A stretch of 35,363 nucleotides of DNA from a virus: positions 1 through 35,363 of the IMG/VR virus record IMGVR_UViG_3300023196_002791. One strand, written 5' to 3'. Position 1 is the first letter of the stretch; every line of letters starts with the position of its first letter. Positions 1-35,363 of the stretch are shown here, in pieces. A program made the position numbers and the translations under genes. The notes beneath the pieces were generated by a model that had not been told where the DNA came from, did no database searches, and saw only the letters and a program-made list of their open reading frames with translations.

Positions 1-96
1 CTAAAGGGCAACCGCCTTGCAACCCAGATCACCGAACTGACCGGGCTGGTCATCATGTTTATGTGCGCTGAACCAGTCAAGGAGACAAACCAATGA
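1..96 (+). CDS. 3' end of small membrane-associated-looking protein (partial, allelic copy)
   Basis: This reading frame is open from the first base and stops at 94-96. It encodes the last 31 residues of a protein whose full-length version is at 35091-35291. The two C-termini differ by few residues (for example ILFMCAEPAKETNQ there and IMFMCAEPVKETNQ here). It overlaps the next start by ATGA. It is best read as the second haplotype of the same gene, cut by the contig edge, not as a separate gene. Function is unknown. Confidence 0.7.
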   Translation, partial: LKGNRLATQITELTGLVIMFMCAEPVKETNQ

Positions 97-560
97 GCGT
101 AGACTTGAGCGGCAACCCGACACCTATGCGCACCCGCGACGGAAGGCGGGCTGACTTTGTGCGTGTCAATGGGCACGACAAAGCCGTTTACCTCGTTCAG
201 TTCCGCCCTGAACAGGCTTATTTTCCAAATGGACAAATCCATAGCGGAGACGCGGAGCATGATATTGACCTCATCGGCCCGTGGTGGGTTGTCGGGGAAA
301 CCTACCTGCACGACGGCAAGGATGAATGCCCGCTGCCGAAAGGCGCGAAGTGCTGGCGGCACTATCCCAATTGCATCTATTTGGCGGCGTGGGCCAATGT
401 GGTAGCCTACACCATCACAGAGATGCCGCCCGTGAAGCTGTCTGTGGCGGACGAGTTGCGAGAACTTATCGTAAATGAACTGGGCTATACATCCAGCTTT
501 AGGGCTAAAGTCGCAGCCCTCGCTGATCGGCTGGACAAGGAGGGCCGGGGCAATGACTGA
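93..560 (+). CDS. Hypothetical phage protein, variable cassette
   Basis: A 155-residue soluble protein starting at an ATG that overlaps the upstream stop (ATGA), with AAGGAG about 8 bases before it. The N-terminal part (MRTRDGRRADFVRVNG) resembles small conserved phage proteins that begin with a 'DGRxA' strand and contain a short beta-rich domain, but I cannot name a function. The middle is rich in Trp, Tyr and Cys; the C-terminal third looks helical (ELRELIVNEL, FRAKVAALADRLDKE). It is the last gene of the rightward unit, and only 7 bases separate its stop from the o-spanin stop on the other strand. The other end of the contig joins the same downstream sequence without this gene, so it appears to be present in only part of the population. 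Confidence 0.75.
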   Translation: MSVDLSGNPTPMRTRDGRRADFVRVNGHDKAVYLVQFRPEQAYFPNGQIHSGDAEHDIDLIGPWWVVGETYLHDGKDECPLPKGAKCWRHYPNCIYLAAWANVVAYTITEMPPVKLSVADELRELIVNELGYTSSFRAKVAALADRLDKEGRGND

Positions 561-3742: not shown

Positions 3743-4192
3743 TTACGCCCCTTTCGCGGCTTGGATCGCCGCTTTGATTTGCGCCGTTTCGGTTGCGCCG
3801 ATCCGACCATCTGCAAGGATGCGGTTCACCGCTTTGGCGGGCATGAACTCGCGCGCCAATTGGATCAGGTGGTTTCTCCGGGCGATCTTTTCGGGCGAAG
3901 CATCTGCAACATTGTTCGGGTCCGCCGCCACATCAATCAGCATCTTTTCCAGTTCAGCTTGCCCGCGTTCGGAACTGTTGAGCCGGGTCATCATGGCCGA
4001 TCCATCGACAAGATCGCCTGTCACTTCGTCGTAAAACACCATGGTGATATCTTCAAATAGCGACAGGTCCACGGACAACATTCGTTCGGAAACCTCGCCC
4101 TTTTTCATAAAGGCGGGATGAGGTTTCAGACCGTGATGGTTATAACTGCCGTCCGCGTCGTTGAATAAAAAGTAAATGTCTCTGACGGGCAT
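3743..4192 (-). CDS. Hypothetical protein immediately downstream of the tail fibre
   Basis: A 149-residue protein whose ATG overlaps the tail fibre stop (TAATG), so the two are translationally coupled. The N-terminus ([21 protein letters not shown]) looks like a small beta domain. The C-terminal half is helical (EKIARRNHLIQLAREFMPAKAVNRI, then IGATETAQIKAAIQAAKGA). Position suggests a fibre-associated or fibre-assembly (chaperone-like) role, but no family is recognised. A second tail component is an equally good guess. Confidence 0.7.
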   Translation of the reverse strand: MPVRDIYFLFNDADGSYNHHGLKPHPAFMKKGEVSERMLSVDLSLFEDITMVFYDEVTGDLVDGSAMMTRLNSSERGQAELEKMLIDVAADPNNVADASPEKIARRNHLIQLAREFMPAKAVNRILADGRIGATETAQIKAAIQAAKGA

Positions 4193-5886
4193 TAGGTTAC
4201 ACTCCTGTAAGTCACGCGCGTTCGCATTGTTTCGTAGGTGTTATCATTCGGCCCCGCTGTTGAATCCGCCCATTCAATCCCAGTGATTACCCCGTCGCTT
4301 GGTGCGGCTTGACCAGATGTCAGAGTACCTGACATCGAGGAAGCGCTACCCCAATCAGAATAACTCGACCACGATCCGTTTTGTTCCGCGCCAAGAGTAG
4401 AACCACCAGCACCACCGGGAATAACCTCGACACTTATCGCGGCAGCATCATCAGGCAGAACCCCGGCGTCCGTGACCGTCACCGTCCAGTCGATATAGTC
4501 GGTGTTATCGGTCATCGCTGTAATTTCCAACGCGGCCCATTTGGTCGCATCATTTAGCTGTCGGATGATTAGACGACCACCATCAACGCTCGCCAAATAT
4601 GCAGCCAAATCTCGGCTGTCGTCATCCGTTTCGCTGATATAAACACCTGTCACGCTTCCTATCGTGACGTTATCGAACCGCAAGTTTCCAGCACCGGGGT
4701 CTGCGTCCGTTACAGTCGTGCTGAACGTATAGTTGAAGCCCCCGCTAAGGCCCGCTGCGCCGTCCGCACCGTCAGCGCCGTCCGCACCGTCAGCGCCGTC
4801 AGCGCCGTCCGCACCGTCAGCGCCGTCCGCACCGTCAGCGCCGGTCGCACCCGTGGCACCCGTGGCACCCGTGGCCCCGTCCGCACCGTCCGCACCGTCA
4901 GCGCCGCTCGGACCCGTGGCACCCGTGGCCCCGTCCGCACCGTCCGCACCGTCAGCGCCGTCAGCGCCGGTCGCACCCGTGGCACCCGTGGCACCGGCTG
5001 CGCCCGTTGCACCCGTAGCCCCCGTGTCACCCTTGCGGTAGAATTGCACCGAAACGGGGTCGTTATCGGCCAGCGCTGTGCCCCCAACGCCACCTGTCAC
5101 AGTCAGGGTCGTCACGCCCGAACCGTTAGCCGCAGCCGTTACTGTGAACACCGCGACCTTAGCGGACGTGACGGTATTACGAACGATCAACTCACCTACG
5201 TCCCAAGCGTTGACAAAACTGGAAAGATCGGCAGCGCTCTTATCCGCGTCAGCAATGAAAATTTCAGTGACGCTGGCCACGGTCGCATGGTTGAAACGAA
5301 TGTCACCGCCCGGAATACCAGCCGCAGCGGTGCCGGTATCGAACAGGTAGAGGAAACCGGGGTCGCTGCCGTCTGCCCCGTCAGCACCATCTGCCCCGTC
5401 GCTCGGCCCCGTCGTCGTCTCAAGGTCCAGCCCATCGGCGGAAAATTTGAGATACTTGGACGCCCGATCTGTCGCCCGGCCCACGCTGGTTGTCACGGCT
5501 TCCGAAGTCGGCTCAACCATCAGCGCCCGGTCAAACTTAGTCAGCAACCGCGACAAATGCCGATAGACCTGATCCATCGCATTGTTGAACAAGCTGGCAG
5601 TGAAGCCCGCGCGTGATCCGATATTGCTGGCCCGCTCAACGCTATCCGCCCACAAAACCGCGTAATATGTCGATCCGTCCGCTGGCGTTGTCAGTGTCAC
5701 CACGCCCGACGACGTGCCCGCCCCCGTGACCGTGTAATCGGTATCAAGCACCAGCGGCGTGTCAGACCCTTGCTTGTAAACCACCAGTTCCGCATTGGCG
5801 GCGAAGTAGAAATCAAGCCCGATTGTGTCCACACCGTTCGCCAGAAGCGACGGCCCGACCTGCATATTGTTTTCAGTGTGCGCCAT
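4192..5886 (-). CDS. Tail fibre protein with T7-type N-terminal domain and collagen-like repeats
   Basis: A 564-residue protein. Residues 1-135 fit the N-terminal virion-attachment domain of T7-like tail fibres (start [34 protein letters not shown], then [15 protein letters not shown]). A short GAD stretch at about 161-172 leads into a beta domain. This is followed by a collagen-like tract of about 30 Gly-X-Y triplets (almost all GAT or GAD) and a second, related beta domain (GFNYTFST... matching GFLYLFDT... of the first). The C-terminal part is Ser/Gly-rich and may contact the host. Collagen-like tracts trimerise and give fibres length. Two 2OG-oxygenase-fold genes lie downstream in the same run. 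Confidence 0.88.
4745..5033 (-). repeat. Collagen-like Gly-Ala-Asp/Thr coding repeat
   Basis: Degenerate 9- and 18-base units (on the plus strand gtccgcacc and gtcagcgcc) repeated through about 290 bases and encoding roughly 30 Gly-X-Y triplets in the tail fibre. X is almost always Ala and Y is Asp or Thr; one triplet is GPS. Such tracts change length easily by slippage or recombination, so fibre length may vary between phages, and assembly through it deserves caution. Confidence 0.9.
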
Positions 5887-8369
5887 TATCGGCCCCCGTC
5901 GCCTAGAGCGTTTTTCAGATCGGGAAGCCGAATGCTCGACCGCCCGCCACCAGTTGCCGCACCTGGTGGATAAAAGAATTGCGTGTCAAAGTCACGCGCG
6001 GACTTCCTTTTTCGCCGGAAGGATCGGCTTGCATCCGGGTTCAGGATATCTTCAAGACGGTCCATAACCTCCCGTTCCCAAAGCATATCGGCAAACCAAA
6101 GGTTGCCGCCCGGCGTGTAGTTGCGGCCCAGTCGCACAAACTCTGCGCCCGCGTTGGTTTCCTCGCCGCGCACCACGTTCTGCACATTGCCCAGCGTCGC
6201 CCCAACAATATCGGTGCCCAGCCCCAGCGTCGGCCCGCCCAGCGTTGTGCCCAGCCCGCCGCCAAAGCGGTTGTGATCCGTAAAAATGAAATCCCCGAAG
6301 ATGCCCAGCCCGCCACCCTGAGCCATTGCCGCGACCCAGAATTTGGCCGTCGTCATGTCCTTTGGATCGCGGCCCGCTGCAATCTCTTTCAACTGTATGG
6401 CCACGCCGCCCAGAATTGTGTTCCAGATCAGCAGTTGCGCCGCATAGTTCGCCGCCGTCAGCGGTCGCCCGTCGAATGCCTCGGAAACCGACCGCGCAAC
6501 GTGCGTCATCAGAACCGTCAGGGAAAAACTGCGAAACTGAAACACGGCCCGCGCCGTCTCGCCCGTCAGTGTGCCGGGTTTCGATTGCCCGATAACAGCC
6601 GCCCGGCCTGATATCGTCGCGCTGGGCACCGCAAACTCTATGTCGCGATAGATGCCCGCCATCCAGCGATCAGCCGCCTCCTGGCCCGCCGCCTTGCGCA
6701 CCGCGTTCATGCCCATAACCTCAAGCCCGGCGAAGTCGTCCATGTCGCCCGCGCGCATCAAGTCCCAATCGCCTTCGGTCAGCCCCATCTTTTGCAGAAA
6801 CCGGCGTTGACGCGGGTCCAACTCGCCCCAGCCCTTATCACGCGCGGCAGCAAATGCCCGCATCCGCGACGTGCCCGCCGCCGTCCGGTGCGTTTCGGTC
6901 AGGAAGCCAAGGCCGGACATACGAATAACGCTTTCGGCAATGCCCGCGCTCGACTTCATAACCATATCTTCCAGGTCATGCCGCGCGGCAGCCGCGCCAT
7001 AGTCCAGTCCGACGGACAGGATCAGCCCCAGGTCGCCCGCCGCCTCACGATTGGCCCCGGATGCTGCCAGTCGCACAAAGTCACTCAGAAATTGAAACTG
7101 CCCCACGCCGACGAATTTGGCAGAAACACGCTGCGAGTTGAAATCCGAGATCGAAGAAATCACCGCCTTGCCCAGCAGAGACGCCGAAAGCCAGTTGCGG
7201 GTTGCCGCCATTGTGGCCGCCATCCGCTCGTTGACCGGCACGTTGGTTTCCCCGGTGAACAGCCGAAACTTACTTTCGGCCTGATAGAGCCGTTTTTCAA
7301 ACAGCTTGAGCGCATCCTTTTCGCCGGATCGTGCCGCGATGCCCCGCGCGCCATCCTTGAGCCAGGCCCATGAATGCGTCGGGTTTGGCCCTAGCACTTC
7401 CATCATGGCAATATCGCGCGCCATGCTGTCCAGATGCCGCAGCATTGTGTCGAAAGGATCGGCCCCGCCGCCGAATTGCTCGTTGTAGGACGCCCAGCTA
7501 TCCGCGTCCTTGAAGATCAGAAAGCGGTGATCGGATCGGCGTTTTGCCATCATGCCCCGGCCCGCGTGTGCGGTCGGGTTGCGGCTGGCGTGGCCGTCGG
7601 TGCGGATATCTTCGTTGACCCGATCCAGTATTGCCCGGCGCTTTGCGGCGCTATAGGGAACGCCCCCATTGTCGCGCTCGGCCATCGCGTCCCAATCAAG
7701 CAGGCCGTCGGTCGCGTCGGCCCACTCGCCGGGCCGGGCACCCCGCACCTTATTCGTGTCATGCCATTGCGGCATGTTCCAGCGCGCCAGCTTGGCAATA
7801 TCGCCGCCTGCCGCGTTGAACCTGGTGCGCGCCCGCTCGGCGGTGTCGGCCCACACCTTAGCAAAGCCCTTGGCCTGGGCGTCGCCCGTTTCCTCGCCGA
7901 ATACCTCGCGCAGCGTGTCCATCATCAGCGCTTTTTTGCGGCGCATGGTCAGGGCATTGCGGCGGAATGTCCGCATGGCCTCGCTCATCGGCCCTTTGAG
8001 GTAGGATCGGACGGCATGATACTGCCCGGTCATGGTTTGCCCGGCATAGGTGCCGCTTGGATCCTCCACCATTGCAGACAGTGCCGCCGCCGGGTTGATC
8101 TTGCCGGTCAGGGTGCGATGCTCTGACAGTTCATCAGTGCGGCGCTTGAGCGTTGATCGCGTCAGGCCCGTGCGGCGACGGCGCTGGAATGTTTCCTGGC
8201 GTGTCCGGTCGAGGATCGCCCGCGCCGCAGCCGCGTCGGCCTGCACGTCGCCCATGGCCGCGCCCATGTCGGCGGCCTCGCTTGCGTGTTCCTCCAATAG
8301 TTCGCGCGCGCGCTCTGGTGGAATGTGCCCGTCATCGACGGCGCGGCGGATGCAGTCACCAAAACTCAT
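5886..8369 (-). CDS. Large virion-associated protein (probable internal/ejected protein)
   Basis: An 827-residue, mostly helical protein starting [11 protein letters not shown]; the ATG overlaps the upstream stop (ATGA). The first 250 residues are highly charged, with long Arg-rich helices (for example [18 protein letters not shown]). Several hydrophobic stretches occur in the second half (around [15 protein letters not shown]). It follows the polyvalent internal virion protein and precedes the tail fibre, in the place of the last core protein of T7-like phages. Size and composition fit a protein packed in the capsid core and ejected with the DNA, but I recognise no catalytic motif. Its last residues ([14 protein letters not shown]) overlap the fibre start region by a single base. 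Confidence 0.7.
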
Positions 8370-11300
8370 TTCAGGCAAACCTCTGCAATGTCTAGCGTTT
8401 CGTCAATTTCATCCAGTTCTGCCGCAACGTCGTTCGGGTTGCGCTTTTCAAACACAACATCGCCCGCATCGTCCAGCCGGTCGCCCGGCATGGTATCAAA
8501 CAAGTCCTTGAATGTGGGGTTGTCTGGATCGCGCTCGGCGATCAAGTCCTCTAGGTCGGTTTGGCGTTCGCCAACTTCAGGCCCTTCGACACCGCCTCGC
8601 GCATTGCCTGGCTCGGTTCCGGCTCCGGGTTCAGTTCGCGCCGCAGGTAGGCCGAAGCTGGTCCCGTCGAATGGGTTTTCCCCTTGGATTTCGCTGATTG
8701 CTTTTGGGTCATCTATCCCCCCGTTGTTGTCGATTTCTGCAAAGCCGTCCGCAGCGTCCTGGTCGCGCAATGACCGGAACACCGCGGCAGGCTTATCGCC
8801 CACTGCGTCCACATACTCCGGCGCGATCAAGCGCCCGGTATTCACAAATCTAAGGATCATGCGGCGGTAGGCTTCGGCTGGTTCAACCGCCATGCTCGCC
8901 ACACGGACAACATAGCCTGCTTCACGTAGCTTTGCAATAACCCTGGCGATACTTGCCTCATTGCCGCCGACCTTGGGAATGACCAGGTTTTCGCCCTCGG
9001 CCATCATGCCATCCATCAGGGCATTGGCAAGATCGCTGCTTTCCTCATGTGTGGCATTCGCGCCAATGCCGCCGTCATATTCGGGCAGGGTTGCCTTAAT
9101 GTCGTCAGGGTCGATGATTGCCGCGCGCTGCGCCTTCGCGATCTTATTGGCAACCGTGGATTTCCCGGCGGCAGGCGGCCCCAGAACAATCGTGGCCGTG
9201 CGGTCCTGGCCTGTTTCCCCCGCTTGCTCGCGCGCCTTGGCGACCCATCGCGGCACGGCCTCGGCGGTGCCGGTGACGGTTTCGCCATCGAAATCATAAG
9301 ACCGCGTTGCGTGCCAATCGTCGCTGTCGTAGCCCGGCGCGTCGCGGGTTTCCGGGCGCGCTGCCATGTCTTCCAGCGCTTGCACCACCGCCGGATGATT
9401 GTCGATAACCTCGCGCTCGATGCCGGTTTCGACAATCGCAGCCAGATCGGACAGGAGGTCGCTATCGTCCTGAAACGCCTCGCGCGGCTCGTCCGCAATC
9501 GGTCTAACTACCTTTTCATACCCCTGGTCAAGCGCGTCCCTGTAGGCAGCTTGGAAACTATCGTGGTGCGTGTCGCCGCTCGGACCCTTATCGTCAAGAT
9601 AAGTAATGCGCGCGCCGGGCTGGCCATCCATGCGAGGGCCGACAAGCGCTTTTAACTTGCCATTGCGGGTTTCCAAGCGGGCAGGCATACCCGTCGCCGC
9701 CAACGCATCGGCCAGAACGCGCCGCGCATCGCTAAGGGCCGCGCTCAACGTCATGTACAAATCTAGCTTGTTGTCTCCAGCGGTGCCCGCCTCAACCTCG
9801 GCTTCTAGTGCTTCCCAATCGGCGCGAACCTCGTTCAAAGCATCTTCGGCGTCGGCCACCACTTCATCAGCGGATTGCCCCCCTTCCGGCTCGACTGTAT
9901 CGCGGATCGGGTTCGCCGCTACTTGTTCGCGTTGCGCCTCGCTGCCTCGTTCCCCGACGGCGGCGTTGTGGTCAGGTGCTTGAGCGCTCTGGCCTTGATT
10001 ATCGCCATCCGGTCCTGCGCGGCTGCCTGTAGCCCCGTCAAGATCGCCTCGTTCAATTCCTCGTCGGACAGCATCGGCGACGGCTTGGGCTGCGTCTTTG
10101 ATTTTGCCGGTGTCTTTGTAGCTTTTCGCGCCATCGTTCAGAGCCTCCGAAATCGGTCCCGCCCGGTGCGCCAGTTTTTTGACCAGCGCCATCGCGGTTT
10201 CCGTGGTTTGCCTTATCGCCGCATTGGACGCCTGGTCCAGCCGGTTTTCGCCCGCCGACGTGATCCGGTCGCCCCGCTCGGTCAGGGTGCGGAATGTCGC
10301 CTTGTCCTCGCCCAGAATGCGCAGAGCGCGGTCCAGCACCTTGGCCTTTTCCGCGAACAGGCTTTCGGTCGTGACGCTTTCCCCAAACAGATCGGAAGTG
10401 ACTTCCTTTGTGCGCGGCGCGTTCAGGGCTTGGTCAATGATGCTTTCGGCTTGCGCCAGGTTCGCGGGTTTCAGGCGTTCCAGCAGCCGCATGATCGGCA
10501 GGTGCAGCGCCTTGTCCTCGACCATGCGGCCAACGGCAGCGGAAAAGTTTTGCGGCACAACCTCGTTGATGAACAGCCCGAATGCGTCGTCACTCAACCG
10601 CGTCAGGTGCGTGGCGACAATCGTTCCCGGCCCGACAGGCAGATTTTCAATGACCTCTGGCGCAACGCGCAAGACCTTGGCTGCATCGCGTGCCATGGCC
10701 GCCGTCATCCCGTCTGCGGCTTCCGCAATGTTCTTGATCGCGCCCGCCACACGCGCGGCCTCGACCGACACGCCGTCGCTTTCCCGCAAGACCTCGGCCA
10801 GCAGGCGGATATCCTGGGATGGATCGCGCTTCATTATCCGTTGCGCAAGGCTGACGCGCTGGTGCCCATCCACAATCGCGCGGGTGCCGTCCTTGAATTC
10901 GTAGACGATAACCCGGCCCGACAGGCTGTTGTCCCATTCAGGATCATTGCGCAGCTTGTCCGTTACCCCGGAAGCGTCAGCATCACTTTTGAATTGAAAC
11001 TGGCCCGGCATTATTTTCAGATCGGCGGCCCTGACTTCATCGACGGCACCATACAGCAGCGCCCCGCCAGGTGCCGTGTCAAAGATCGGCCTGTCCGGTT
11101 GCGGCTCGCCCACCGCCGCGCGCGTCTCACGCTGACGCGCCTCGCCCGCCGATAGCACATCGGTTTCGGTTGCTGCGGCTGCGGCATCGTCCAGATCACG
11201 GGCAATCCGTGCGCCCACAGCTTGAGCGTCCGCGCGCCCGGTGTCCTGCAAGCCTTTGGCAAGGGTGCGGCGTTCCTCTGGCGTGCCGCCCCCCTTGAGC

Positions 11301-12034
11301 GTGCGGATCAGTGCCCCCGGCCCCTTGAACAGCGCCACAAAGCCAGCACCAAAGGCCGCGCCAAACAGGGCATTGACCCAAACGCTTTCCGGCTCATCGC
11401 CAATCGCTTCGAGATAGGCGTTGCGGCTCGGCGTTATTCCCGCCTCAATCCCAGCATTCAGCGCGCTTTCAATCGCCAGCGTACCCCAAAAGCCAATTCG
11501 GGCAGGTGCGCCGATTGCCAGCGTGGCCAGGTTTTCAGGGTGCGTGAATTGTGCGCCAAAGCCACCGATCAAGGCCCCGGCGGTTCCAGCGACCGGCCCA
11601 GCGGCACCAATGCGCCGTTCCTGGAATTCGCGCAGTTCCAGATCGCTTTCCGCCTTGTCGTTGCGGCTTTCCTGCACCGCTGTAACGCCAAATTGCTCTG
11701 GAACCTCGACGCCCCCCCGCGTCAGGATTTCATTAAGCGCGCCCAGGTCGCCGCTTACGTCGCCCATGTCAGGCGCGGAACCATCATCGAAGGCAGACAG
11801 GCCCAGGCGGTCCTCAAGGTCCAACAGTGGGTCAATCGGTTGATCTTCTGGCCAGTTGTCAAATGCGAAATCAAGGTATTCCTCGTATGCCGACTGGTTG
11901 AATTTTTCGTCACGCCGCGCATCCATTGGTGCCTCAAGCCCAAAACTGGCACCGATGGACGACAACAGCCCAGCCCCGCCGCTCAGATCGGCAACCTGCC
12001 CGCGCGGTGCGGCTGTTTTAATCCAATCCGTCAC
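8366..12034 (-). CDS. Polyvalent internal virion protein: ParB-like domain plus zeta-toxin-like kinase
   Basis: About 1222 residues from a GTG that overlaps the previous stop (GTGA); an in-frame TTG lies 21 bases upstream. Order of parts: an N-terminal hydrophobic/Gly-Ala region (about 145-240); a ParB/Srx-like domain (about 335-405) with the signature VDGHQRVSLAQ; long helical linkers; and a P-loop kinase domain (about 945-1095) with Walker A GPPAAGKS (952-959), DPDD (975-978) and a HEESS segment, as in zeta-toxin/PezT-type kinases. An acidic tail follows. ParB-like domains bind DNA or nucleotides; zeta kinases phosphorylate UDP-sugars or other small substrates. Combining such effector domains in a virion protein matches the 'polyvalent proteins' described for phages and conjugative elements, thought to act in the host right after ejection. 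No antitoxin is seen nearby. Confidence 0.82.
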   Translation of the reverse strand: MTDWIKTAAPRGQVADLSGGAGLLSSIGASFGLEAPMDARRDEKFNQSAYEEYLDFAFDNWPEDQPIDPLLDLEDRLGLSAFDDGSAPDMGDVSGDLGALNEILTRGGVEVPEQFGVTAVQESRNDKAESDLELREFQERRIGAAGPVAGTAGALIGGFGAQFTHPENLATLAIGAPARIGFWGTLAIESALNAGIEAGITPSRNAYLEAIGDEPESVWVNALFGAAFGAGFVALFKGPGALIRTLKGGGTPEERRTLAKGLQDTGRADAQAVGARIARDLDDAAAAATETDVLSAGEARQRETRAAVGEPQPDRPIFDTAPGGALLYGAVDEVRAADLKIMPGQFQFKSDADASGVTDKLRNDPEWDNSLSGRVIVYEFKDGTRAIVDGHQRVSLAQRIMKRDPSQDIRLLAEVLRESDGVSVEAARVAGAIKNIAEAADGMTAAMARDAAKVLRVAPEVIENLPVGPGTIVATHLTRLSDDAFGLFINEVVPQNFSAAVGRMVEDKALHLPIMRLLERLKPANLAQAESIIDQALNAPRTKEVTSDLFGESVTTESLFAEKAKVLDRALRILGEDKATFRTLTERGDRITSAGENRLDQASNAAIRQTTETAMALVKKLAHRAGPISEALNDGAKSYKDTGKIKDAAQAVADAVRRGIERGDLDGATGSRAGPDGDNQGQSAQAPDHNAAVGERGSEAQREQVAANPIRDTVEPEGGQSADEVVADAEDALNEVRADWEALEAEVEAGTAGDNKLDLYMTLSAALSDARRVLADALAATGMPARLETRNGKLKALVGPRMDGQPGARITYLDDKGPSGDTHHDSFQAAYRDALDQGYEKVVRPIADEPREAFQDDSDLLSDLAAIVETGIEREVIDNHPAVVQALEDMAARPETRDAPGYDSDDWHATRSYDFDGETVTGTAEAVPRWVAKAREQAGETGQDRTATIVLGPPAAGKSTVANKIAKAQRAAIIDPDDIKATLPEYDGGIGANATHEESSDLANALMDGMMAEGENLVIPKVGGNEASIARVIAKLREAGYVVRVASMAVEPAEAYRRMILRFVNTGRLIAPEYVDAVGDKPAAVFRSLRDQDAADGFAEIDNNGGIDDPKAISEIQGENPFDGTSFGLPAARTEPGAGTEPGNARGGVEGPEVGERQTDLEDLIAERDPDNPTFKDLFDTMPGDRLDDAGDVVFEKRNPNDVAAELDEIDETLDIAEVCLK

Positions 12035-15000
12035 TGGCCACGCCCAAGCGCCCAAAGGCGCGAAACGTCAAGTTCAACCGTCGATCCGTCCTCATAAATA
12101 AACGTGTTGCCAAAATCATCGGCAGGGAAAAACTTGTACTGATTGCCCGGCACCGGGTTCATCTGGCCAACCAGGCCCATGAATTGCCCAAACGGAATTG
12201 GCTTGCCGTAGGTGTCAAACGGCTGGGCACCCAATCCGATTTCCAAAAACTGCGGGTTGCTCGCCACACCCATCGCATTGTTGAACACTTCGGTCGTCCA
12301 TTTATCGGGCAGAATAACCGGGCCAAAGTTGCTATTGTAAACACCGCCCGCCTTGGTCGCGCTGTCCATGCCGAATGCAACCTCGTAGCCCATCTGCATG
12401 TGCTTATCTTCGACCTCGGCCTTGTTATCCCGCGCCGCAAAGCCAATCGCGTAATGCTCCGCGATATCCTCAACGCGCGACAGGGTGCCGACAGCGAAGT
12501 AGCCAGCCGCAATCGCCGCGCCCGCGACCTCTTGCCTGATAGTGTGCCGGTCGATTTTATTCGGAATGGTCAGGTCGCTTTCGGTCCCAAACAGCATGAC
12601 CTCCGCATCCTGCGTCCGGCCCAGCCGCGCCATTGAACCGGCGATTGCGTACATGCCATTCCCGCCCAGCGCTTCCAGAACCGCCGTTGACTGTTCCATC
12701 GGCAATTCTGCCAGCCCTTCCAGGAATTCAATGCGCGCTGTTGCCGACAGTTCGGTATCGTCCAACAATCCTTTGAGCCGTGTCTTTTCGGCGGCGTCCA
12801 GCGGAACCGGCGTCAAAACGCCCTCACCCTCGGCGGCAAGGCTCACATCAAGCACACGCTGCGCAACCTGCGCGCCCAGGTCGCCAGTCGTTTCACCGTC
12901 CAGCGGGATAACCTCGATCCCCTTGGCCTTGGCGAAACTCGTGGCGTCGCTGCGCGCCATTTCCGTCAAGTTGGTACTCCACTCGTCCAGCTTGCCCAGA
13001 ACCTCGCCAATGAACACGCCCTCTTTGCCGTAGCCCTTGCCCTCGGCGGCCAGATCGTTCAGCCGTTCCTGAATTGCCGTCATCGCGTCATCGCGCTGAT
13101 CGGCGGTCAGGTCGGTCATATCGCCGATTGTATCATAAACCGTTTTTGCCTGGGCGATCTGTTCCAGCAATTCCGGCTTGCCTGCGGCCTGCGCCTCCAT
13201 TCCGGCCCAGTCAATTTCATCAAGAACCGTGCCCTCCACCGTTGCATCCAGAATTGTGTTCACGCCTGTCATGTCGGCGGTGATGCCCTTTTGAAGTTCT
13301 TTCAGCTTATGTTCGAGTTGAAGAATGACGGCGGTTGCCTCGTCATCTATTTCGCCGCGCTCGGCAGCGGCTTGAAGCTGGGTTTTCTGACTGTTGATAT
13401 ACGCGCTCAGTTCCCCGCCGGTCATGCCGTGCGTGGCAACGGCAGCGTCAGCCGTGGCGAATGCAACCTCGGCTTCGCGCTGCAATGCCGGGTAGCCCTC
13501 AAGATCGGCCAGGATCGCGGCCCGTTCCTCGGCGGGAATGGCAATCGGCGCACCGGCTTCGGTCATCGACACGTAGGGGTTGATCGTTTCCGTCGTGTGC
13601 TTTTTCAGCGTGGCGGCAGCGGCCCGCGCCGCCGCTTCCTTCTGCGCCTGTTCTGCCCGCACCCCGACCTCAAGCTGGCCCAGCAGTTGAAGCGCCTGAC
13701 CCGGCGGCAGGGGCGACCGGCCCGCGAAAATCTCTTTCCTCATTTCCGAGACAAACGCGCCCTTGGCGGTCGATCTCTCGAAATCCCCCCGGATCATCAT
13801 TTCTGCCGAAGCGTCACCCATCGCCTGCATTTGCGCGCCCATCTGCGCAACGCTCATGATCCCCGCGCGCGCCCGATCAGCAGGGTAGTCCACACCGTTG
13901 AAGGTGAACGCCTCACGCGGCCCGAATTGCGCAAGCTGGCGCTGTGTGCGGACCAGGTGCCCCTGGATTTCCGACGTGCTGGCACCGGACAGAGCCAGCC
14001 ATTGCGCTTGTTCGTTTGCCGCATCGACCGCCATGTTGAAGGCTTCGGTTTGCCCGGCAATCGTCTTTTTCTCGATCTGCCCGATTGCCTGCCGCACCGC
14101 CACGCCGCGTTGCGTTTCGAATTCGGTTTCCATGTCGATTGCAAGGCCGGTCATCGACGCGGGAAGATCACCCATGACCTGCGAGCGTAGGGCGTCCATC
14201 TGTTGATTGAGCGCGCCCAGGTCGCCGCCCGCTTCCATCGCAGCAATAGAGGCCCCGGAATAAAGCGCCTGCCGCGCCCGCGCGCCAATCACGCGCTCTG
14301 CGGCCTCGTTGAATGCAGCGTCATAATAGGTAAACGGCAAGCGGCGCTCGAATGATGCGCCCCCCGTCGATACCAGTTCCATATCCGGCATTTGCGGAAT
14401 GAAATTGCCGTCAGGCCCAGCGGCCACCGGCCCGACCTCAACGCGGGTTTGCCCATACTTGCGCCCGCCCGCCGCTCGGCCCTCGCGGACGGCGGCCAAA
14501 AGTGTCAGGTCGCCGTTGAATTCATCGTGATCTTGGCCGCGTGTGTTCGGCCCCCAAAACATTTCATTGCCGCCGCCAATGTGAACGCCCCAGCCATAAT
14601 GCCCAATGCCCGGAAAATATGGTGCAGCGGCACGGAACAGTTTGGCGTAGGCTTTTTTATTCTGATCGGGCGTAACATCTTTGCCGTTGTAGCTCAGCAC
14701 AAAGTCAGCCGTGCCCGATTTCCCGTGATCGTGTACATCGTGCCGGGTTGATCCGGTGCGGCGCGCATTGACAAACTTGGCGATATCCACCGGGTTCGTG
14801 ATGCCCCGCGCAGCCGCCATCTGTTTTAGCTGGTTTTCGGAATACTGACCGCCCGACTTGACGCGCACGTCCCAGCCCTTGCCCAGCGATCCGGCGACAA
14901 TCGCCGAAACCGTCGCCATGTATTCATCTGTCAGCCCGCGATTTCGCCTGGCCCCCGGCGTTTTGTCGCCCATTCCCAGGAAGCCCGGCAGGATAAACGT

Positions 15001-29982: not shown

Positions 29983-30009
29983 CGCATAATAACCAGAGGA
30001 ACGAACCAG

Positions 30010-30213
30010 ATGAATGATCTTTTCGACCAGCCCGGCGCACGCGGCCAGACCGGCGAACGCCAGACCGATCTTGAGGCATTGATTGCCGAAAACATGGATG
30101 ATGACGATATCCGGGATGCGTTCGATACCAACCCCAATTTGACCTTGGCGCAATTGGCCCGCATGGCCATGCGTTCGGTCCCTGAAATCAAAAAGGTGTT
30201 GTTGATTCTATGA
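30010..30213 (+). CDS. Small early protein sharing a motif with the polyvalent virion protein
   Basis: A 67-residue protein. Residues 15-40 (GERQTDLEALIAENMDDD then FDT) closely resemble the C-terminal tail of the 1222-residue virion protein (GERQTDLEDLIAER ... DLFDT), also at DNA level. The rest (LTLAQLARMAMRSVPEIKKVLLIL) is a helical region with a hydrophobic C-terminus. A shared binding surface, a decoy or an antidote for the virion protein are possible readings; none is proven. Overlaps the next gene by 4 bases. Confidence 0.7.
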   Translation: MNDLFDQPGARGQTGERQTDLEALIAENMDDDDIRDAFDTNPNLTLAQLARMAMRSVPEIKKVLLIL

Positions 30214-31046
30214 ACAACTACGAAGCAAAACAGGAAGCCAAGCGGGACCGGCTGAACGCCGCCGCCGACCGGGCAGAGGAACGCGCCGCCGCCGCATTTG
30301 ATCGCGGCGATCTGCGCGAGGAAAAATCCGGCATTCCGCTGGGCCAGCCGATCCTTGTTGGCCACCACAGCGAAGGCCGCCACCGTCGCGCCATTGCGCG
30401 GGCCGACAATGCCATGCGCAAGAGTATCGACGAAGGCAAGCGGGCCGGTGATCTGCGCGCACGCGCCGCCGCTGTTGGGCAAGGCGGGATCAGCAGCGAC
30501 GATCCCGAAGCGATCCGGAAACTGCAAGCCAAGATCAACAAGGCCGAGAACTGCCAAGCATTTATGAAGGCGGCGAACAAGGTTGTTCGCGCATTCTACA
30601 AGGCAGGCGTTCGTGACGCAGATAGCGGCGACTTGTGGCTGCGCTACCTGACCAAATTGAATGACCTGCCTGGCGGCGAAAACATCACGCCCGCCGCCGC
30701 CGCCGCTCTGTTGCAGGGCGATTTCGCCGGGCGCATTGGTTTTGCCGACTATCAGTTGACCAACAATAACGCCAACATCCGGCGCATGAAGCAGCGCCTT
30801 GCCCAGCTTGAGGCAAGTGCGGAAGCGGAAACCGTCGCGCAGGAATTCGACGGTTTTGAACTGGTCGAAAACACCGAAGCGAACCGCGTTCAATTCATGT
30901 TTGAGGCCAAGCCCGACGCCAATGTGCGCGCGGTCCTGAAATCAAAAGGGTTTCGCTGGGCACCATCGCAAGGCGCATGGCAGCGGCACTTGAACAACGC
31001 CGGGCGCTACGCGGCCCAGCGCGTCATCAATATGATGACGGAATGA
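30210..31046 (+). CDS. DUF3560-type protein
   Basis: A 278-residue protein. The N-terminus (NNYEAKQEAKRDRLNAAADRAEERAAAAF, then IPLGQPILVGHHSEGRHRR) is the signature of DUF3560, found in phages, plasmids and conjugative elements. The C-terminal 70 residues (EANRVQFMFEAKPDANVRAVLKSKGFRWAPSQGAWQRHL) form a second small domain commonly fused to it; its Trp-rich 'FRWSPxxxxWQRxL' motif is easy to recognise. DUF3560 proteins are linked to mobile-element early functions, possibly counter-defence, but the biochemical role is not established. The N-terminal half is a long charged helix. ATG overlaps the upstream stop (ATGA). Confidence 0.82.
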   Translation: MNNYEAKQEAKRDRLNAAADRAEERAAAAFDRGDLREEKSGIPLGQPILVGHHSEGRHRRAIARADNAMRKSIDEGKRAGDLRARAAAVGQGGISSDDPEAIRKLQAKINKAENCQAFMKAANKVVRAFYKAGVRDADSGDLWLRYLTKLNDLPGGENITPAAAAALLQGDFAGRIGFADYQLTNNNANIRRMKQRLAQLEASAEAETVAQEFDGFELVENTEANRVQFMFEAKPDANVRAVLKSKGFRWAPSQGAWQRHLNNAGRYAAQRVINMMTE

Positions 31047-35090: not shown

Positions 35091-35291
35091 ATGATCGCCA
35101 CCACTTTCTGCTTATTCTTGGGGGCAGCACACATCCCCGACCTGCAACCCCGCATCATCGAGTACGACTGCGGGATGAACGAGACTCAGTGCCAACTAAA
35201 GGGCAACCGCCTTGCAACCCAGATCACCGAACTGACCGGGCTGGTCATCCTGTTTATGTGCGCCGAGCCAGCCAAGGAGACAAACCAGTGA
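35091..35291 (+). CDS. Small protein with N-terminal signal-like segment (alternative haplotype end)
   Basis: A 66-residue protein starting MIATTFCLFLGAAHIPD, a short hydrophobic, Cys-containing start that could be a signal peptide. It has Cys-rich centre (YDCGMNETQCQLKGN) and a hydrophobic segment (LTGLVILFMCAEP). GGAGAATGAAAA precedes the ATG. Bases 35196-35291 are repeated with few changes at 1-96. In this haplotype the stop is followed after 12 bases by the o-spanin end. Function unknown; possibly an exported or membrane protein acting at late infection. Confidence 0.65.
   Translation: MIATTFCLFLGAAHIPDLQPRIIEYDCGMNETQCQLKGNRLATQITELTGLVILFMCAEPAKETNQ
35196..35291 (+). repeat. Near-identical to bases 1-96
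   Basis: The first 54 bases are identical and 5 of 96 positions differ. After the stop codon, similarity ends abruptly. The pair marks one genomic site seen as two alleles, not a phage terminal repeat. Confidence 0.9.
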
Positions 35292-35308
35292 CCATCAACT
35301 GAACTACA

Positions 35309-35363
35309 CGCAGCCCGCTTCCAGCTTGACGATCAACTCCGCCGCCGCGATCCGAACTTCAGG
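35309..35363 (+). repeat. 55-base exact match to 573-627
   Basis: Identical over the whole 55 bases up to the contig end, and lying within the o-spanin gene. A length of 55 is a usual assembler overlap size, so this is the closing overlap of a circular graph. Confidence 0.9.

Follow-up and report, generated by a model that had tools for sequence, protein, structure and literature searches.

A mobile two-part peptide module on unrelated proteins of uncultured phages, a candidate docking peptide for a host protein

Why would two genes on opposite strands of one phage genome, one for a small early protein and the other for a large polyvalent protein, encode the same short peptide? The question arises in the 35,363-nucleotide stretch of viral DNA analysed here (IMG/VR record IMGVR_UViG_3300023196_002791; the window), in which GERQTDLE[A/D]LIAE is common to a 67-aa protein (MNDLFDQPGARGQTGERQTDLEALIAENMDDDDIRDAFDTNPNLTLAQLARMAMRSVPEIKKVLLIL) and to a region near the C-terminus of a 1229-aa ORF that ends ...GGVEGPEVGERQTDLEDLIAERDPDNPTFKDLFDTMPGDRLDDAGDVV... 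(Table 1). The polyvalent copy matches the 67-aa protein as a single-sequence query with E=3.9e-6 when the window is searched, and matches a motif profile with E=1.4e-9; together these values rule out a chance match. The core DNA of the two copies is also similar, with 27 of 33 positions identical and the differences synonymous. The similarity that the original prediction had described, in protein and in DNA, is therefore real. Its extent is smaller than was claimed: of the approximately 27 residues said to be shared, up to and including an FDT ending, about 16 hold (the VGERQTDLEDLIAE region), and the FDT extension lies outside the module in both proteins. The DLFDT at ~8497 is part of the C-terminal tail native to the polyvalent protein, as comparison with RFDLFDQVPVARGFDDEGNEV in the relative G011 indicates; the G011 polyvalent protein, from a phage that shares 12 gene clusters with the window, has the C-terminal end DPADPSRFDLFDQVPVARGFDDEGNEV, and DLFD therefore belongs to that protein's own tail. 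The DAFDT of the 67-aa protein falls within its HTH-like body, which resembles Roseobacter phage CRP-361 gp3 (44% over 34 aa). The polyvalent copy is half of a longer module, without the DLFD element that comes before GERQ in the other carriers.

Table 1. Features of the module and its carriers, with positions in the window
Feature	Position	Strand	Basis or remark
Full module MNDLFDQPGARGQTGERQTDLEALIAE	30007..30096	+	Profile E=5.4e-17
Half module VGERQTDLEDLIAE	8531..8578	-	Profile E=1.4e-9; in linker between zeta-like kinase domain and conserved C-terminal tail; absent from relatives' linkers
67-aa early protein: N-terminal module (residues 1-28) and small helical HTH-like body	30010..30213	+	Profile/sequence match, AF2 model
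DUF3560 protein	30210..31046	+	Start overlaps stop of module gene (ATGA)
1229-aa polyvalent protein	8366..12055	-	phrog_10691 region (269-661) and Zeta_toxin kinase (950-1110)
Module peptide other than the window's: QFDLFDLGSASQTGERQTDLEELIDE			

A degenerate-DNA scan of IMG/VR for GERQTDLE returned 46 contigs; five of these match by chance, in contexts unlike the rest, and another is a twin contig, almost identical to the window, that has the half module of the polyvalent protein. Scans for DLFD-spacer-GERQ returned 33 more. The full module is present in 73 further IMG/VR contigs, some of them near-duplicates, a count drawn from scans that required exact GERQ plus D and so missed more divergent copies, and from records many of which are fragments. 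When 28 phage records were searched whole, 26 had a match, with one copy in each of 25 and two in the window. By contrast, tblastn (E<=10) against 50,697 cultured phages and 72,556 plasmids revealed no module relative, and a profile search of 12 related or methyltransferase-bearing cultured phages found no module. It was likewise absent, at the sensitivity used, from 84,980 bacterial and archaeal species genomes and had no match in Pfam, PHROGs, NCBIfam, PADLOC or PDB (one sub-threshold NCBIfam match, E=0.05, was disregarded); nor was the string GERQTDLE found in the literature searched. Mimicry of a host peptide was considered and rejected: among 33 GERQTDLE stretches in species genomes a single one passed, inside a glycyl-tRNA synthetase beta subunit-like protein, and we attribute it to chance.

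The carriers fall into two gene-sharing groups with mostly dissimilar genes. Group I comprises the window's podophage type, with a phrog_332 portal and the polyvalent protein, whereas group II has a different capsid protein and a gene of exceptional size (up to 8 kb). At BLAST level the groups overlap in only 13 clusters, mainly a tail-fibre-like gene, lysis-like small proteins and the tagged genes themselves, and their portals are only distantly related. The GC content of carrier genomes ranges from 34 to 60%. This range, together with the dissimilarity of the two groups, suggests that the partner of the module is probably encoded by the host, as a protein present in many bacteria.

Alignment of the copies gave the consensus [Q]xD[LIM]F[DN]-(7-9 residues, often ..SQP)-GERQTD[LI]Ex[LI]IxE, that is, about 28 residues in two parts joined by a spacer. 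The bodies to which it is attached include a cytosine-type DNA methyltransferase (phrog_757), DUF3560, an HTH-like domain, at least seven small unknown bodies and two polyvalent proteins, and in group II one N-terminus precedes differing bodies at the same locus. In other genes, of 34-53 aa, the module is almost the whole protein (for example MKQQDLFDIPGAKQPGERQTDLEDLIAEKKKENK, 34 aa); Shine-Dalgarno-like sites are found at those of 41, 47 and 52/53 aa. AF2 predicts that residues 1-20 of a methyltransferase fusion are disordered (pLDDT ~42) with a helix from 20 on, so that the second part is helical and lies outside the methyltransferase fold; a single-sequence model of the window's 67-aa protein, of modest confidence (pLDDT 63), has residues 1-12 unstructured, a helix at 13-28 and three helices after it. 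These comparisons show, at the level of sequence, a two-part module that moves among the unrelated early proteins of uncultured phages and is occasionally carried by a polyvalent protein, and the existence of such a widespread, undescribed phage peptide module is close to certain. The module is not an ancestral part of the methyltransferase, since the cultured methyltransferase relatives inspected start at the domain. One untagged methyltransferase relative, in Paracoccus phage Psul1 (L146), has a phage gene with the annotation DNA polymerase III beta subunit a few genes away.

Within the early operon, the module gene is usually promoter-proximal, opposite replication or terminase-small-type genes. 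In the window it is followed by the DUF3560 gene, and in two relatives (L051/G011 and L113/G018) the module is fused directly to the DUF3560 domain. The 67-aa protein has no Pfam family match. Roseobacter phage CRP-361 gp3 (L058, 1965-2117) is a 50-aa early protein related to the HTH-like body, without the module.

What is selected, the DNA or the peptide? Across nine methyltransferase fusions, pN/pS was 0.10 for QFDLFD and 0.13 for GERQ...ES, as against 1.44 for the spacer and 0.22 for the methyltransferase body; just six codons underlie the QFDLFD value and seven the spacer value. Within the module all four codons are used for G, all six for R and several for T and L. Because both halves are under purifying selection while the spacer is free and codons vary, selection acts on the peptide, as two blocks with a free linker between them. 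The codon variety and pN/pS values rule out a DNA repeat or recombination site as the source of the conservation. A related account, in which the conserved 5' gene end serves as a recombination landing site for the swapping of bodies and the peptide itself has no function, would suit the constant N-terminus and varied bodies at the one group II locus; given that synonymous codons are free to vary, that both parts are constrained around a free spacer and that the module also occurs inside polyvalent proteins, we consider it very improbable.

The polyvalent ORF contains matches to Zeta_toxin (E=2.4e-18) and phrog_10691 (E=6e-44), and so combines several effector domains, as polyvalent phage proteins do; like the large polyvalent proteins described previously (PMC5512222), it joins a zeta-toxin-like kinase and a phrog_10691 region in one chain. 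The module, by contrast, is found mostly in other proteins, and the searches made match it to no described LPD domain. Among about a dozen polyvalent homologues, only two cases contain it: the window (with its near-identical twin contig, G023) and G012. In G012 the variable linker that joins the zeta-like kinase to the conserved C-terminal tail, where the window has its half copy, holds a full module and a degenerate GERQTLLED. In both G023 and G012 the only copy found is the one in the polyvalent protein. An origin as an ancestral part of the polyvalent protein is ruled out, most homologues being without the module.

These data bear directly on the pairing that was originally proposed, in which the early protein, by resembling the tail of the ejected effector, would bind, neutralise or replace it. 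Both copies are indeed in the window genome, and a zeta-type kinase might require an antidote. Yet the motif occurs in both proteins in only one of the 26 motif-bearing phage records, the window itself; relatives have it in just one of the two genes, and it is missing from the tail of most polyvalent homologues. Moreover, the 67-aa protein has no similarity to the epsilon antitoxin in Pfam, and its gene is ~18 kb from the zeta-type gene on the opposite strand, whereas an epsilon antitoxin would be encoded beside zeta. We therefore regard the pairing as hardly credible. The copies in the window are better seen as two separate uses of a single mobile module than as a matched pair, the 67-aa early protein perhaps being the working copy and the polyvalent half copy secondary or decaying. 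The alternative offered at the same time, that the two proteins share a binding site or tag and dock on one partner, agrees with a conserved, mobile and separately selected peptide on many unrelated proteins.

A tag of this kind could in principle direct cargo into the virion. T4 provides a precedent: its capsid-targeting sequence is an N-terminal peptide on several unrelated internal proteins. The module resembles it in this respect, is N-terminal on diverse potential cargo, and is carried by a polyvalent protein, a type of phage protein presumed to be ejected (PMC5512222). Nevertheless, the near-stand-alone genes carry almost no cargo, the module is present in a single copy per genome with no capsid link seen, most polyvalent homologues lack it, and the two groups of carriers are mostly unlike in their structural genes, though their portals are distantly related. 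We consider a packaging or ejection tag very improbable. The module is most likely a docking peptide for a widely conserved host protein.

Which host protein might this be? The first part of the module recalls the bacterial motif that binds the beta sliding clamp (DnaN), for which the consensus is QL(S/D)LF with restricted positions 4 (L/M) and 5 (F) (PMC11139829; see also PMC3716654). Gln1 of that motif contributes to binding and is dispensable in some natural ligands, the delta subunit being without it; the motif of Hda lies within a disordered N-terminus, and the flanks of clamp motifs are mostly acidic (PMC11139829). When the module is set against the general clamp pentapeptide Q-phi-x-[L/M]-[F/L], D3 and F5 are present in all copies listed, position 4 is L, I or M, and D or N comes next. 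Gln1 is found in 9 of 19 body types as compared to a background of 4.2% (P=2.6e-8), or in 4 of 14 with group II counted once (P=0.002). Across 225,000 aa, Q.[SD][LMI]F was seen 22 times against 6.7 expected; nine of these are within the module, and of the 13 clamp-type pentapeptides outside it seven are of one internal polyvalent QxSLF type. In the predicted models the clamp-like part falls in an exposed or disordered segment, as expected of a clamp motif. Additionally, a family A, B or C DNA polymerase or a phage-encoded clamp was found in none of 23 records and the window encodes a DnaD-like helicase loader, so these phages probably rely on the host replisome.

Our best mechanism, which we put forward tentatively and at somewhat less than even confidence, is that QxDLF is a motif for beta-clamp binding, by which early proteins are tethered to the sliding clamp of the host. 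QxD[L/I/M]F with its acidic residues, in an unstructured N-terminus, would enter the peptide pocket of the clamp, and the GERQTDLEDLIAE helix would make a second contact, on the clamp or on a clamp-bound partner. The carrier, whether methyltransferase, DUF3560, HTH or zeta-type kinase, would thereby be kept at the host replisome, which these phages must borrow, while the copies that stand alone would serve as adaptor or competitor peptides. A fuller version, which we think rather unlikely as a whole, is of a mobile host-docking cassette: at least two phage groups would share a bipartite peptide through which any early protein, including a DNA methyltransferase and an ejected kinase, is plugged into the replication clamp of the host, while GERQTDLEDLI recruits a second partner, as a phage counterpart of the PCNA-box on DNMT1.

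Several findings count against the clamp. Conservation of the second part equals or exceeds that of the clamp-like part, and clamp binding does not account for it. Gln1 is absent in more than half of the group I lineages, including the window (MNDLF), with one lineage having DKDLF and another EKDLF; group II commonly has Ile at position 4, where it is a weak residue for a clamp peptide; and the window's polyvalent copy is without part 1 entirely. The no-polymerase state is common in phages of such size and is also true of the tagless G021, and hence is non-discriminating. The module might instead dock, as an inhibitor or adaptor, on another conserved host protein (RNA polymerase, SSB, a protease or chaperone, or a recombination nuclease), its likeness to QxDLF being partly coincidental. 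We rate this nearly as likely as the clamp: the strongest conservation is in GERQTD[LI]ExxI, which fits no clamp motif, Gln1 is often missing, and the module gene tends to the promoter-proximal position in the early operon. Known small phage regulators of host RNA polymerase are likewise encoded by promoter-proximal early-operon genes. It leaves aside, however, the fit of the D-L-F-D part to the restricted clamp positions and the strong enrichment of Gln1, and searches of PDB, Pfam, PHROG, NCBIfam and PADLOC with the module yielded no candidate partner.

Compared with the clamp-binding motif of Hda, Pol II, Pol III alpha, UmuC and transposases, the module is alike in being a short linear motif, frequently disordered and at a terminus and flanked by acidic residues, that occurs on unrelated proteins and has been acquired repeatedly by mobile elements, as transposases have acquired the clamp motif (PMC4549789). 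It differs in its greater length, its second, equally conserved GERQTDLExxI part and the frequent absence of Gln1, and clamp binding is here a prediction from sequence. Phage Twort GP168 (PMC11139829) is also a phage product aimed at the host sliding clamp, as proposed for the module, but acts at the DNA channel and on clamp loading rather than as a short linear motif.

The original observation thus leads to something larger than was first proposed, a widespread module. Conserved peptides well below domain length are difficult for protein-family libraries to detect, and this one is in none of those used. A peptide that stays the same as its carrier protein changes is the mark of a host surface to which many phages need access. 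Should this be the sliding clamp, the carriers would provide clamp-binding peptides from nature and would explain simply how polymerase-less phages bring enzymes to the fork; if it is on another host protein, the partner would be a common takeover target.

Other features of these genomes were noted in passing. The C-terminal 50 residues of the polyvalent proteins (window 8366-8520, minus strand) are conserved as approximately [DE]xx[IV]P[ILV]GxRxDxxxG...RLExC, sometimes after DLFD or DIFD. The polyvalent homologues in G012, G014-G017, G019 and G020 have a conserved internal QxSLFGEExxTES (QISLF, QESLF, QIDLF, QTSLF), which fits the clamp-binding consensus; the window equivalent is TSDLFGES (in 8366-12055, minus strand). 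A 9-nt-periodic (collagen-like) repeat array lies at 4730-5062 on the minus strand, in the tail-fibre gene 4192-5886. Finally, the contig ends overlap, window positions 1-105 and 573-627 matching 35196-35363 with 91% and 100% identity, which suggests that the window genome is nearly complete and closes circularly. The end copy is without bases 106-572, corresponding to ORF 93-560 (155 aa), and a population variant without this ORF probably exists.
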